Shown one piece after another: positions 43,796-48,762 of a DNA stretch of 64,000 bases (the stretch's first letter is position 1; every line of letters begins with the position of its first letter). Origin of the DNA: Fimbriimonadaceae bacterium (GTDB taxonomy: Bacteria > Armatimonadota > Fimbriimonadia > Fimbriimonadales > Fimbriimonadaceae). The notes under the pieces were generated by a model, which was not told where the DNA came from, ran no database searches, and saw only the letters and a list, made by a program, of their open reading frames with translations. The stretch spans positions 1,550,001 through 1,614,000 of the forward strand of contig JABAQM010000001.1 in the NCBI GenBank assembly GCA_019187105.1, read 5' to 3'. The translations under genes and the position numbers were made by a program.

Positions 43796-44583
43796 GAGTC
43801 GTTTGGTCCATCGCCCGCACCACCCTGGGTGAAGCCGTGCGACGGCGAGTCCTTCTCGTCATTCTGCTCATCGCCGTCCTGTTCCTCGCGATCGCTCCCG
43901 GACTCTCCGTCCTTTCCGCCCGTCAAGAAACGACGGTTCTAAAGGGTATGACGCTGGGCATTCTCCAGCTGACGAGCGCCGTTATCGCGATCGTCCTGAC
44001 CGTCTACATGATCCCCAACGAGATCGAACGGCGGACGATCTACACGATCTTGTGCAAGCCCGTGGAACGCTGGCAGTTCGTGCTCGGAAAGTATCTTGGC
44101 GCGGTCATGGCCCTCGGCCTGATGATGGCCCTCATGACGGCCGTGCTCATTATCGTTTTTGCGCTGCAGCAAGGCGCCACGAACATCAACGAGCTTGGGG
44201 TCCTGGCCAAGGCGCCGGTGATGTACTTCATCCAAATGTCCCTGTTAGCGGCAGTGGGCGTGTTTTTCTCGACCTTTGTCTCACCTCTCGTCAATTTCTT
44301 CTTGACCGGGGGCGTGTATCTGGTCGGAACACTTTTCAGCGTGTTCTTCGAAACGCTCTCCACCTCGACGAGCGCGAGTACGGTCTCCGTCACAACAGCG
44401 AAGATCATCCAGGCCATCCTGCCCAACTTCGCCGCCTACAATGTTCAGAATCCGATCATCAATCCCACCCAGCAGATCGCTCAGGAATCCACCTACTACG
44501 CGAACATCACGCTGTATGGCCTGGTCTATATCGGCATTCTTCTGATCGCTGGCATGATCATCTTCCAGCGCAGAGAGGTTTAA
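43792..44583 (+). CDS. ABC-2 type permease (third exporter)
   Basis: A 263-residue membrane protein with about six transmembrane segments (VLLVILLIAVLFLAIAPGLSV, GILQLTSAVIAIVLTVYMI, AVMALGLMMALMTAVLIIVFA, FIQMSLLAAVGVFFSTFV, GLVYIGILLIAGMIIF). The coupling segment NEIERRTIYTILCKPVERWQ is a clear ABC-2 feature. It overlaps the ATPase stop by 4 bp and leaves a 1-bp gap to the next gene. Confidence 0.92.
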   Translation: MRVVWSIARTTLGEAVRRRVLLVILLIAVLFLAIAPGLSVLSARQETTVLKGMTLGILQLTSAVIAIVLTVYMIPNEIERRTIYTILCKPVERWQFVLGKYLGAVMALGLMMALMTAVLIIVFALQQGATNINELGVLAKAPVMYFIQMSLLAAVGVFFSTFVSPLVNFFLTGGVYLVGTLFSVFFETLSTSTSASTVSVTTAKIIQAILPNFAAYNVQNPIINPTQQIAQESTYYANITLYGLVYIGILLIAGMIIFQRREV

Positions 44584-44584
44584 A

Positions 44585-45955
44585 GTGGCGGATCGAAGGA
44601 AGGTCTGGCTCGGAGCCATCGCCGCCCTCGCGGTTGTCCAAGGCAGCCTGAATTCTCTCGTCGTCTATCCCAAGTGGTCCAAGGACTACAGCCTTAAACA
44701 AGGCAACATCGCCCAGGGGCTTGGACCGGATCAGCTTCTTTTGGCGTTAGCCGGCTTCCGGGAGATGATCGCTGGAATTCTCTGGGTCCGCGCCGACTCG
44801 TTCTTCGATAACGGGAACTACGACGCAATCCTGCCCATGATTCGATTGGTCACGTGGCTCGATCCGAACCAGATCGACGTCTTCGCCACCGGCATGTGGC
44901 ACATCGCCTATAACTTCACCGACGAAGAGCAGCGGTCAGACCGCCGCTATATTCCTTCGGCACTTGCCCTGGGCAAGGAAGGCGCCAAACGCAATCCAAG
45001 TACGTACGAAATGTATTTCGAGACGGGATGGCTTTGGTACCACAAGATCGACGACGACTATTTCCAAGCAGTCAAGTGGTTCGAGAAGGCTAACGAGTAT
45101 CCCGACATGATCGAGATGCGCAAGAACCTCCTGTCCAACGCCTATCAGCGCAACGGTCAGATCTCCGAGGGCCTTGACCACTATATGAAGCTTCTCGAGG
45201 AGGCGGAAAAGGAGATTAAGTCGCCGGAAGCGGGTCACCAAAGCTTTCAGCGCCGCGACACGATTGAAGGAAACATCGACACGATGATCGTGCGGATGTC
45301 CCAGCGAGGATTCTTCGCCGCCCAAAACAATGGAGGCGTGGTTCCTCCGGGACCCTACGACGTTAATCCTCCCTTTGACGTGGGCTTCAGTGTGCGGGCC
45401 ACGGTCGAGGAATACAAAACGATCCGGTTGGAAGGCACATGGAACGTCCTGCCGGTAGGCACCCGCATCCGCGTCGTGCTCAGGGACGCGAATTATCCGG
45501 GCGCCAAAGCGGCTCAGATGGACTGGGACGCCAAGGAAGACGTCGCGCTCGATCCGCCAAAGGACTGGACGTGGATGCAAGATCAGCTCTTCGTGCGGAA
45601 CCGCCGATTCAACCGGCCGATCGATATGAGCAAGGATCCCACCATGTATCCGTGCAAATCCGAAAAGTACGTCTTGGAGTTCTATTACAACGCGCGTTCG
45701 GCGCCACCTCACATCCAGGACAAGTTCAGCTGGAGCGGCGAAGGATTCACCGACTCGAACTTCCTTTCGCTGGATGCAAGGCCGAATCAGCGGGTTCTGT
45801 ACACTTCCCTCGAACTGACACGGGACCAGATTCTCCGTCGCAACGAGTGGCAAGACAAGGTTCCCGTGGTCCAGACGGCAAACTATAAGGCGCCGGAACG
45901 CGGACAGCTTCCGAGCGACGTGATCCGCATTCCGACCCTGCGATCGGGCCAATAA
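44585..45955 (+). CDS. TPR-like protein linked to ABC exporter, family unknown
   Basis: A 456-residue protein with an N-terminal transmembrane segment (KVWLGAIAALAVVQGSLNSLVVY). Helical TPR-like repeats follow (FREMIAGILWVRADSFFDNGNYDAILPMIRLV, and a tetratricopeptide stretch YFQAVKWFEKANEYPDMIEMRKNLL). The C-terminal half is beta-rich (FDVGFSVRATVEEYKTIRLEG, YVLEFYYNARSAPPHIQDKF). It is co-transcribed with an ABC-2 ATPase and permease, so it may be an extracytoplasmic partner of that exporter. I know no named family for it. Confidence 0.75.
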   Translation: MADRRKVWLGAIAALAVVQGSLNSLVVYPKWSKDYSLKQGNIAQGLGPDQLLLALAGFREMIAGILWVRADSFFDNGNYDAILPMIRLVTWLDPNQIDVFATGMWHIAYNFTDEEQRSDRRYIPSALALGKEGAKRNPSTYEMYFETGWLWYHKIDDDYFQAVKWFEKANEYPDMIEMRKNLLSNAYQRNGQISEGLDHYMKLLEEAEKEIKSPEAGHQSFQRRDTIEGNIDTMIVRMSQRGFFAAQNNGGVVPPGPYDVNPPFDVGFSVRATVEEYKTIRLEGTWNVLPVGTRIRVVLRDANYPGAKAAQMDWDAKEDVALDPPKDWTWMQDQLFVRNRRFNRPIDMSKDPTMYPCKSEKYVLEFYYNARSAPPHIQDKFSWSGEGFTDSNFLSLDARPNQRVLYTSLELTRDQILRRNEWQDKVPVVQTANYKAPERGQLPSDVIRIPTLRSGQ

Positions 45956-46338
45956 GGCCGGAGCCGGATCGAGTTTCGCGGCGAGATTGCGGCCATCCTG
46001 CCCTGAACGGAGGACAATACCTGCCGTCTTGCCCGCATATATGGCCGTTTGCCTTGACAGGTGGGGTCAACACTGGTACAATGCCCCATTGCGTCCAAGG
46101 GTTACGATACCGAACGATCTAAGGAAGCAAATCTATTCGATGAATCGCTCGCTCGTGAAAACCGGAATCCAACGCATAGCTTCCAGCTCGGAAGAATCAC
46201 GCGGTTTCGGTAGCGCCGAGCGCTGTGAGCGATTCACCTCGTCAATGACGAGCAGTTTCGCAGTTTGGTCGGGTTTCTCCCGGCGGGCTTTTGTTCGCCG
46301 GTCCGGCGCGGGTTTGAACCTTAAAGAGGGAAACTTGA
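45956..46338 (+). promoter_or_regulatory. speD upstream region with long leader
   Basis: 383 bp without an established gene. It holds a near-consensus promoter (46054-46082) and then about 250 nt of leader. Two perfect hairpins are visible in the leader: CTCGTC-AAT-GACGAG at 46238-46252 and CCGGCG-N10-CGCCGG at 46280-46301. No known riboswitch consensus is recognised. Confidence 0.5.
46054..46082 (+). promoter_or_regulatory. Strong sigma-70 promoter for speD-speE
   Basis: TTGACA (46054-46059), 17-nt spacer, TACAAT (46077-46082). An inverted repeat TTGAC-N7-GTCAA (46054-46070) covers the -35 box and half of the spacer, as an operator would. Confidence 0.85.
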
Positions 46339-46947
46339 TTGGCTATCACGCTTGCATTCCTTAGCTGCGCTGCCTTTGCAGCAATCGTCCCGCTGGTCCA
46401 TCCAGCCAGATCATCTTTCTTCCGTCGGCTGATCGACAAACTCAGGGGTGGCCATGCTATCGTCGCAACGCCTGAGCGAAGCACCCAGTCGGGCTGGCAA
46501 TTTATCCACTGCGACGACCTCGCTTCCTTCCAGGAGTGGCTTGGCCGGGACGAGATGGGGCTGCCGCCAGCGGAAGGAGAAGATCCTTCGCTGGGCTCGC
46601 ATTTGCTTGTCGAACTATTCGGGTGCAAGCAAGATGCTCTTGAAGAGGAGCTATCGGTAGGCGAAGCCATGCGAAGCGCCGCCGACGAAAGCCTCGCGAC
46701 CGTCGTCGCCGAATCGTTCCACGAGTTCAAGCCTTACGGTGTCTCCGGCGCGGTTATCATTCAGGAATCCCACTACACGATCCACACGTGGCCGGAGCAT
46801 GGCTACGCAGCCGTGGACTTGTTCTACTGCGGTGGCACGGTTCACGTCCACCGTGCCATTGACGTCCTTGTCGAACGCTTTCGACCGAGTCGGATGAAGT
46901 TTCTCGTCGTCCGGCGTGGCATTCGCACGGAAGTTGTCCGCCATTAG
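46339..46947 (+). CDS. speD: S-adenosylmethionine decarboxylase with N-terminal extension
   Basis: A 202-residue pyruvoyl enzyme that makes decarboxylated SAM for aminopropyl transfer. The catalytic core is at residues ~84-202: GSHLLVELFGCKQ, then VSGAVIIQESHYTIHTWPEHG with the ESHYTIHTWPE self-cleavage site (Ser forms the pyruvoyl group), and AAVDLFYCGG. Usual bacterial SpeD is 115-140 residues and starts near the first block. Here about 80 extra residues include a hydrophobic leader (LAFLSCAAFAAIVPLV). The TTG start at 46339 has AGAGGG upstream; an internal ATG at 46555 would give a shorter form. It is followed by speE. Confidence 0.92.
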   Translation: MAITLAFLSCAAFAAIVPLVHPARSSFFRRLIDKLRGGHAIVATPERSTQSGWQFIHCDDLASFQEWLGRDEMGLPPAEGEDPSLGSHLLVELFGCKQDALEEELSVGEAMRSAADESLATVVAESFHEFKPYGVSGAVIIQESHYTIHTWPEHGYAAVDLFYCGGTVHVHRAIDVLVERFRPSRMKFLVVRRGIRTEVVRH

Positions 46948-46994
46948 CACGCGGACGATGGACTTTTCCTCGCCTCTCCCGCCCAATTAAACGA

Positions 46995-47924
46995 ATGTTT
47001 TCACAAAGCACCGGCATGTTCGTTGCCGAAACCCATACAACGGCCGTCACCTGGCTCTTCACTGTCGAAAAGTTCCTGAAGGAAGGCAAGACGCAGTTCC
47101 AGGAGTACCAAATTGCCGAGATTCCGCGATTTGGCAAGTCGCTTTTTCTCGATTACAACATTCAGACATCCCTCCTCGATGAGCATGTCTTCCATGAGTG
47201 CATGACCCAACCCGCTATGGTGCTGCACCCAAATCCCAAGAAGGTCGCCGTCTGCGGTGGCGGGGAGGGAGCAACGCTGCGGGAGGCGCTCAAGCATAAC
47301 ACAGTCGAAAAGGCTGTGATGATCGATATCGATGAGGAGCTCATCGACATGGTGCGGGACCACATGCCGGAATGGCACCAAGGCTCATTCGACGACCCTC
47401 GTACCGAAATGGAATTCTGCGACGCGCGCAAATATCTCGAGAGTGCCAAGGGTGCAAACTTTGACGTAATCCTAAGCGACTTAACCAACCCCCACGAGGC
47501 AGGGCCGGCTCTGTTCCTGTTTACCAAGGAGTACTACCAAATATGTGCCGATGCCCTAAGTGACGATGGCGTTTTTGCTATGCAAGCAGGCTGCGCGAAT
47601 ATGAACTATTTCGATCTTTTCGCGTGCAATATGAAAACTCTGGAGAGCATGAAGGAAACGTTCCCGTACGTTCGTGGGTATCTTGCGTTCGTCACAACCT
47701 TCATGCTCCCATGGGGATTCGTTCTTGCCAGTAAGAAATACGACCCCCTCCAACTGGCCGAACAAGAGATCGCCAGCCGCTTCGCCGCCCGGGGCGTAAA
47801 GACCAAATACTATACGCCTCGCTATCACTCGGCCACGTTTACACTTCCCGACTATCTCCTCGAGGCGACGGAGGAGGTTGGAAGAGTGTTAACTGATGCT
47901 CAACCTTATATCTGGACGGCCTAA
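46995..47924 (+). CDS. speE: Spermidine synthase-family aminopropyltransferase
   Basis: A 309-residue transferase that moves the aminopropyl group from decarboxylated SAM to an amine. SAM-binding blocks VAVCGGGEGATLREALK, IDIDEELIDMVRDHMPEWHQGSFDDPR and CDARKYL closely match the Thermus-type enzyme, which uses agmatine. Two active-site positions differ from most spermidine synthases: Phe66 where Tyr binds the amine (DEHVFHE), and Asn165 in DLTNP in place of the usual DSTDP second Asp. Substrate preference may therefore be altered. It lies 47 bp after speD. Confidence 0.93.
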   Translation: MFSQSTGMFVAETHTTAVTWLFTVEKFLKEGKTQFQEYQIAEIPRFGKSLFLDYNIQTSLLDEHVFHECMTQPAMVLHPNPKKVAVCGGGEGATLREALKHNTVEKAVMIDIDEELIDMVRDHMPEWHQGSFDDPRTEMEFCDARKYLESAKGANFDVILSDLTNPHEAGPALFLFTKEYYQICADALSDDGVFAMQAGCANMNYFDLFACNMKTLESMKETFPYVRGYLAFVTTFMLPWGFVLASKKYDPLQLAEQEIASRFAARGVKTKYYTPRYHSATFTLPDYLLEATEEVGRVLTDAQPYIWTA

Positions 47925-48022
47925 AGTCCTAGCAATCGAACAGAAATCGGGGTACACCTCGTCGTAATGCATGGCGCGTCGGCAGGGTTGCCGGGAAAAA
48001 CGCGTACGGAGGTCTTCGAACA

Positions 48023-48322
48023 ATGATGTTTCGACGATTGTATTGGGTCACGGAAGTCTCTGAGGCGGGAAATGTCCGCGTTGCCGGAGTCTATACGTCG
48101 ATTCCTGATCTGATTGAGAAAGGTCTTGAAAATGGCGCGGTAACGCGAATCTCGCTGGTCAAGCTCGATAGCTGCGACGGCCCCCTTGGCCGCTGGGAGT
48201 CCCCCTCGTTCGGCAATATGCGCGAAGACCTCCAGGCCTACGTCGCTACGGGAGAATTTGCCCTGGACGAGATTCAATCCCTTGCGATGGCGATCAGCGG
48301 ACTGGCCGGCATCAAGGCTTAG
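48023..48322 (+). CDS. Small conserved hypothetical protein
   Basis: A 99-residue protein (MMFRRLYWVTEVSEAGNVRVAG, VYTSIPDLIEKGLENG, LVKLDSCDGPLGRWESPSF) with a mixed alpha/beta pattern and no leader or membrane segment. GGAGG lies at suitable distance upstream. The start could be either of the two adjacent ATGs. It overlaps the end of the convergent DinB-like gene by 4 bp. I do not recognise a family. Confidence 0.65.
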   Translation: MMFRRLYWVTEVSEAGNVRVAGVYTSIPDLIEKGLENGAVTRISLVKLDSCDGPLGRWESPSFGNMREDLQAYVATGEFALDEIQSLAMAISGLAGIKA

Positions 48323-48762
48323 CCCGCCCGCACCGTTCGCTTGATCAAGTTCATTTGCCCGATGTGGTAGGCCCCATGGACGGCGATACGAACCAACGCA
48401 TCGATCGCTTCCTCGTCGGTCGGCAGCTTGTGGTCGAACGGATCGCTTTCGGTAAGGCGAAGGGCCTCGTTGAGGCCGGCAAGAAACCGCTTCTTAAGAA
48501 CCGGAAACTCGCTTTCCTCTGGCACGCGAAAGTCGTTGCTCCAGACCTCCATCTGCGGTCGGCGCGGCTTGCCCGCCAGTTTTTCGAGCCAGATGTCCTG
48601 CCATAGGAGCGCATGGGCAAGATTGGTGGCGAGTGAATAGGGTACGTGGTCGGGCTGGATCGAGGCCGTGCCAGCCTTGATGCGCAGCATGCCAGCCGGT
48701 GTCGGAATGTCGTAGCCCTCAATGATATGCCGTAAGACCAGCGCCAGCACCGTGCGATCCAT
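48319..48762 (-). CDS. DinB-like (YfiT) metal-binding protein
   Basis: A 147-residue four-helix-bundle protein. The metal-ligand histidines are visible in LATNLAHALLWQDIW and AVHGAYHIGQMNLIKR, the DinB/YfiT pattern. Members are often bacillithiol- or other thiol-transferases, or uncharacterised. It has its own TAATCT box 6 nt before ATG. It follows the zinc peptidase gene with a 2-bp gap. Confidence 0.85.
   Translation of the reverse strand: MDRTVLALVLRHIIEGYDIPTPAGMLRIKAGTASIQPDHVPYSLATNLAHALLWQDIWLEKLAGKPRRPQMEVWSNDFRVPEESEFPVLKKRFLAGLNEALRLTESDPFDHKLPTDEEAIDALVRIAVHGAYHIGQMNLIKRTVRAG

Follow-up and report, generated by a model that had tools for sequence, protein, structure and literature searches.

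That RNA may sense polyamines is a suspicion of long standing. The genes for S-adenosylmethionine decarboxylase (speD) and spermidine synthase (speE) studied here stand behind a long leader, and the locus raises the question of whether this leader is a regulatory RNA and how it would act on the genes that follow it. The locus lies in the window, a stretch of 64,000 nucleotides from a genome of 3.3 Mb assigned to the Fimbriimonadaceae (Armatimonadota); all positions given without a locus name refer to this window, and its features are collected in Table 1.

Table 1. Features of the speD-speE locus, with positions in the window.
Feature	Position	Strand	Description
Promoter	46054..46082	+	-35 TTGACA 46054-46059, 17-nt spacer, -10 TACAAT 46077-46082; kept before speD in the family
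Inverted repeat TTGAC-N7-GTCAA	46054..46070	.	over the -35 box; judged accidental
speD leader RNA	46089..46338	+	start predicted near 46089 from promoter position
P1 region	46089..46130	+	46089-46092/46127-46130 and 46094-46096/46123-46125; from the fold of the window leader and the shared 5' end
P2 long-range helix	46141..46236	+	46141-46152/46225-46236, 12 bp; coevolves in all three clades
Hairpin CTCGTC-AAT-GACGAG	46238..46252	+	6 bp; first hairpin of the original prediction
P6 3' hairpin	46268..46307	+	outer 46268-46272/46303-46307, inner 46280-46288/46293-46301 (second hairpin of the original prediction); from covariation
GUUUCUC, possible anti-Shine-Dalgarno	46273..46279	+	complementary to 46328-46334; putative pairing
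Shine-Dalgarno region GAGGGAAAC	46326..46334	+	from sequence comparison
Short overlapping frame	46335..46364	+	9 codons from a TTG 4 nt ahead of speD; TAG 46362-46364
speD	46339..46947	+	S-adenosylmethionine decarboxylase, TTG start; PF02675 1.2e-36, TIGR03330 3.5e-37
speE	46995..47924	+	spermidine synthase; PF01564 3.5e-41, NF002010 2.1e-77

The speD locus in the Fimbriimonadaceae

speD was found in 78 of 85 genomes of the family. From 85 distinct loci, 74 Fimbriimonadaceae loci were retained for comparison, leaving out L062, which was cut off, and the loci of other families. Because some of the 74 loci are closely related, locus counts do not represent independent events; this kinship inflates the counts, and E-values are rough. 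In the SpeD protein of the window, an N-terminal extension (46339-46590; about 84 residues, the first of them hydrophobic) precedes the decarboxylase domain, which begins at residue 88. Most SpeD matches in the family include this extension, through which the enzyme is possibly membrane-anchored. One locus, L021 (G023:C174:1188-1775), has a single in-frame TGA within its speD match, which is either a sequencing error or real. A frame of 74 amino acids starting at ATG 46140, inside the leader, was discarded as it had no family match in profile searches.

A conserved promoter precedes the leader

The original prediction described a near-perfect promoter overlaid by an inverted repeat. The promoter was present, matching the consensus at 11 of 12 positions, and was the sole promoter-like match in 44500-48500; since shuffled versions of these 4 kb contained a mean of 1.8 promoter-like matches, the window match alone was not above chance. 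A scan across the family showed that the promoter is conserved before speD. Out of a possible 13.3, the best site scored 11 or more at 43 of the 74 loci and in none of 74 control stretches taken from within speD; with 9 as the cut-off, the counts were 58 and 4. Among these 58 promoters, the -35 box was TTGACA in 37 and the spacer was 17 nt in 52, and the distance from the end of the -10 box to speD was 213-324 nt (median 241.5). The inverted repeat was also found where it had been placed, but as a control site it failed: it recurred in only 2 of the 58 family promoters, and a conserved operator was therefore ruled out.

With the predicted promoter and the TTG at 46339 as its limits, the leader is about 250 nt long as stated, and family leaders measured about 210-320 nt after the promoter. 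The window leader folded moderately better than its shuffled versions (z -2.2; 2 of 200 shuffles equal or better). Averaged over 73 loci, the folding z was -1.6 for leaders and -1.0 for coding controls; because the leaders lay so little below the controls, thermodynamic stability alone was weak evidence for structure. The 5' end of the transcript, UGCGYC, was common to most family loci, and its pairing with GRYGC was noticed by eye in some relatives.

No known RNA family was recognised in the leader at the outset, and the searches agreed. A search of 45950-46420 against Rfam returned no match up to E 5, a search that could miss a far-diverged variant, and in 12 relatives none reached the gathering score. 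Neither the SAM families nor the four-stem SAM-I aptamer matched in this region or in these 12 relatives. With Rfam 15, no family was placed in the leader; the sole sub-threshold matches (L143 1-145) lay outside it and were weak chance matches. The leader was also undescribed in the available text of the open-access papers listed on speD, on Armatimonadetes/Armatimonadota and on Fimbriimonas regulatory RNA.

A long-range helix coevolves across three clades

A first attempt with RNAalifold on alignments of full-length leaders gave next to nothing, and in the full-length alignment of the largest clade (30 leaders) no pair fell below E 0.05, the best reaching 0.058. These alignments were uninformative because the middle of the leader is too diverged, and we therefore used an alignment-free partner-swap test, which compares the pairing of a leader's own 5' and 3' segments with that obtained when its 5' segment is offered the 3' segments of other species. 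An earlier version based on duplex folding was too permissive and was replaced. The segments tested for P2 were chosen after a first look at the data. Ten of the 74 loci were skipped (no anchor or an odd distance), leaving 64, and five more (L025, L027, L033, L061, and L146) were dropped by hand after the first result.

In the remaining 59 leaders, own P2 partners scored 18.3 versus 14.7 (sd 0.36) for swapped ones, a z of 10.2. Three control windows gave z values of -1.5, -1.6, and an unexpected 4.4, so that the last was not null. When 54 of the 59 leaders were divided by clade (L003, L012, L041, L042, and L050 left out), P2 was recovered in each, with z 7.0 in 17 leaders, 5.9 in 29, and 3.4 (p 0.004) in the 8 leaders of the window's own clade. 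A perfect helix as good as P2 of the window leader occurred in 9 of 300 shuffles of that leader.

A folded domain in the best-resolved clade

In one clade, nineteen leaders align well, and on these we ran a phylogeny-aware covariation test. It was purpose-written (not R-scape) and used the G statistic with average-product correction, the null being 60 alignments in which substitutions were re-dealt along the FastTree tree. The six best column pairs all fell in P2 or in P3, a hairpin inside P2; one column pair was below E 0.05 and four were below E 1. P1, P1b, P4, P4b, and P5 were added by eye and counting, together with a pseudoknot that joins the P5 loop to GUUCG just 3' of P2.

The resulting alignment, A1 (19 sequences, without the clade members L027, L028, L053, and L055), holds 42 pairs in 8 helices and has 92.3% of its 794 cells paired, versus 78.0% in shuffles and 32-48% in slid versions; the structure was drawn from the very alignment on which it was counted, a bias in its favour. 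Changes on both sides were seen in 23 of the 42 pairs, and none of 500 shuffles reached any of the five measures. P2 (7 of 7 pairs) and P3 (7 of 8) together supplied the bulk of these double changes, and P1 and P1b had none among the 19 leaders.

A covariance model built from these leaders, R1, recovered L053, L027, and L028, none of which was in its alignment, and its matches outside the training set included three that were clearly diverged (E 2.7e-32, 1.9e-29, and 5.4e-9). Across the 85 family genomes R1 produced 23 strong matches (E <= 5.1e-8), one per genome and every one directly upstream of speD; 19 of these genomes had supplied the model, and four (G102, G107, G025, and G022) had not. 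Two weak matches elsewhere (E 0.0019 and 0.0048) are probably due to chance. There was no strong match in the other 61 genomes, that of the window included. One genome has a second match to speD, a diverged one (G082:C5:214107-214436), with no R1 match beside it.

The window leader itself gave R1, the model of its sister clade, a weak, full-length match of 12.9 bits (46075-46275), with the score coming from the -10 box, the 5' end, and the GGUCGGGUU block. The interior of the leader did not align to the model, and P3 to P5 and the pseudoknot are therefore not shown for the window. In the clades compared, the leaders displayed both conservation and strong covariation, the property on which the original prediction of a structured leader had been staked.

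The 3' hairpin and the Shine-Dalgarno region

Two perfect hairpins had been predicted near the 3' end of the leader. Both exist in the window, and the second (9 bp, two of them G-U) covaries in the window's clade as the inner part of P6; as a family feature the first did not stand, as no counterpart was noticed in relatives. P6 was counted in 29 and 9 chosen loci, excluding those without the motif in their 3' part. In the largest clade (29 sequences), both partners had changed in 8 of 13 pairs, a count attained by 0 of 500 shuffles, and a small helix beside the Shine-Dalgarno region (helix 3) was weak, with 64.7%. The window's clade (9 sequences) had 98.1% of its cells paired and 6 pairs with changes on both sides; 8 of 500 shuffles matched this last measure and none matched the other four.

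P6 ends roughly 15-20 nt upstream of the Shine-Dalgarno region. Between its outer and inner parts lies GUUUCUC, which together with AGGGAAACUUGAUUG was invariant in 9 of 9 window-clade sequences and forms seven complementary pairs, one of them G-U, with GGGAAAC. Judged from this complementarity, sequestration of the Shine-Dalgarno region by the GUUUCUC segment is plausible; a UUUCUC or UUUUCC motif occurred in only 49 of the 74 loci, so such sequestration would not be universal.

Two overlapping starts at speD

The comparison of start sites disclosed an arrangement that is new here and that the original prediction had missed: a second weak start codon 4 nt before that of speD, opening a short frame into the gene. 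Start sites were recognised by an in-frame NYGATTG in 63 of the 74 loci, the other 11 not being counted, and the TTG at position 0 is therefore fixed in these 63 by the search pattern. The codon at -4 was TTG in 35 loci, GTG in 26, and ACG in 2, and never ATG; where it is TTG or GTG, it overlaps a TGA. Frames opened by TTG or GTG at -4 stopped within 13 codons in 53 of 61 loci, 52 of them at TAG, as against a chance of 0.361 estimated from positions in the speD body (p 3e-16 if loci are independent). The short frame is typically 9-10 codons long, with its UAG inside speD.

The coding sequence of speD shares this region. In the 49 loci selected because their TAG falls at codon 9 or 10, the AG always belonged to a serine AGY codon of frame 0, AGY making up 27% of speD serines overall, and nine different T-ending codons preceded it. 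Around the start, the frame-0 second positions varied least, indicating that speD is coding here and that the short peptide is not conserved. The context is not confined to speD: GAGG-N2-8-KTGATTG occurred at 18 sites in the window genome (2 for the reversed-pattern control), and at these sites frames of at least 200 codons opened from the -4 codon in five cases and from the 0 codon only at speD.

These counts allow for a reading in which the short frame is the main control, ribosomes starting at -4 and stopping at the UAG so as to block or couple SpeD initiation, with the fold setting only access. The near-invariable TTG or GTG at -4 (61 of 63 loci), the excess of early stops, and the five long frames opened from -4 at the context sites all favour it. 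So do E. coli data, in which polyamines promote initiation at UUG and GUG and influence read-through of UAG (PMC4405209, available text), and by analogy polyamines could tune initiation at -4. We nevertheless regard this reading as unlikely: the short peptide shows no conservation, a covarying structure of about 200 nt would be left unexplained, and at 8 of the 61 loci the frame opened by the -4 codon runs on for 21-49 codons before it stops, which speaks against the short frame being essential.

The speD leader shares its UUG start codon with members of the polyamine modulon, whose definition, in the available text of PMC4405209, includes no conserved structured leader. In E. coli mdtJI, the spermidine-linked short frame mdtU stops 106 nt before mdtJ, and the MdtU peptide itself is conserved (PMC7815308, available text). 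The long leader, the short upstream frame, and the polyamine genes are common to speD, to mdtU/mdtJI, and to the speFL leader as described there; unlike mdtU, the speD short frame overlaps the start and its own peptide is not conserved. Peptide conservation of the kind that marks arrest-peptide upstream frames (speFL, MAGDIS) was absent from the speD short frame.

Eukaryotic AdoMet decarboxylase mRNA carries a short upstream frame (MAGDIS). The two cases are alike in that the message for this enzyme bears a short frame ahead of the gene; they differ in that the speD short frame overlaps the start in another reading frame, encodes no conserved peptide, and follows a structured RNA. The overlapping weak starts raise the separate question of whether a bacterial AdoMet decarboxylase is controlled by a short upstream frame.

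A candidate riboswitch-like leader acting on translation

The conserved promoter, the covarying RNA, and the constrained start together agree with a cis-regulatory leader acting at the level of translation. Judged from sequence comparison, it is rather likely that the speD-speE leader is a conserved folded cis-regulatory RNA setting the translation of SpeD. As in riboswitches, a conserved structured domain lies upstream of a gene, and the leader is probably new and riboswitch-like. In the best-resolved clade, P2 closes a multi-helix domain comprising P3, P4 with P4b, P5, and the pseudoknot. This upstream domain may sense a signal of the polyamine pathway, most likely spermidine, SAM, or a related metabolite; the first two suggest themselves because, wherever the RNA could be searched for, it stands before speD-speE alone. 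The 3' part would then open or close the Shine-Dalgarno region through the GUUUCUC segment or neighbouring pairing, and the overlapping short frame might compete with or be coupled to SpeD initiation. The likely logic would be feedback repression of SpeD.

A more specific proposal is that the leader represents a new Fimbriimonadaceae riboswitch class for spermidine, SAM, or decarboxylated SAM, acting on a pair of starts, where an out-of-frame decoy with its UAG competes with the UUG of SpeD, as an independent bacterial counterpart of the eukaryotic AdoMet decarboxylase control by an upstream frame; we put this forward tentatively, as a possibility of modest probability. The nearest known case is the spermidine riboswitch, a four-stem variant of SAM-I that terminates transcription and is represented by 13 examples, all from Gram-positive bacteria (PMC10853860, available text). 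Both are leader RNAs of polyamine genes for which a feedback off-switch is the expected logic. In contrast to that riboswitch as the available text presents it, the speD leader has no SAM-I match, is arranged differently, belongs to Armatimonadota, and adjoins a translation start.

The sensor could also be a protein or the ribosome rather than a small molecule. Large structured leaders can be protein targets, and the present data do not separate a protein from a metabolite; a leader bound by SpeD or another regulator is nonetheless improbable in our estimate, no candidate protein having been identified. The original prediction noted that polyamine genes are often under RNA control or attenuation, and the transcriptional form of the latter found little support at this locus. 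A leader terminator is very improbable: a loose scan marked 46268-46284 as terminator-like, in the window only, and no U-tract is conserved behind P6 among the relatives. A programmed +1 frameshift of the antizyme or prfB kind, in which ribosomes starting at -4 shift at the UAG into speD, would suit the +1 relation of the two frames and the conserved stop, but it is scarcely credible given that speD keeps its own UUG in 63 loci (as the selection pattern demands), that the speD frame is under coding constraint before the UAG, that the codon before the UAG varies widely with no conserved shift codon, and that a polyamine-stimulated shift would mean positive feedback.

The leader offers dozens of natural variants on the key enzyme of spermidine synthesis, with a structure backed by covariation. 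These variants, the covarying structure, a single strong copy per genome where R1 works, and the conserved promoter make ligand binding directly testable.

speD leaders in neighbouring families

Loci L161-L166, from another family of the same order, carry a different and even more conserved long speD leader (for example L164 769-1000). It holds the blocks GGAGGCGA and UCGCCUCC and the pair CGCGGUC/GACCGCG, the partners of each pair lying more than 100 nt apart, and it had no Rfam match; in the alignment of these leaders, L165 stood on the wrong strand. In a third family of the order, L156, L158, and L160 share the block GGGUUGGGUCGGCGCGUGGGCGCC shortly before speD, which possibly marks a related leader.
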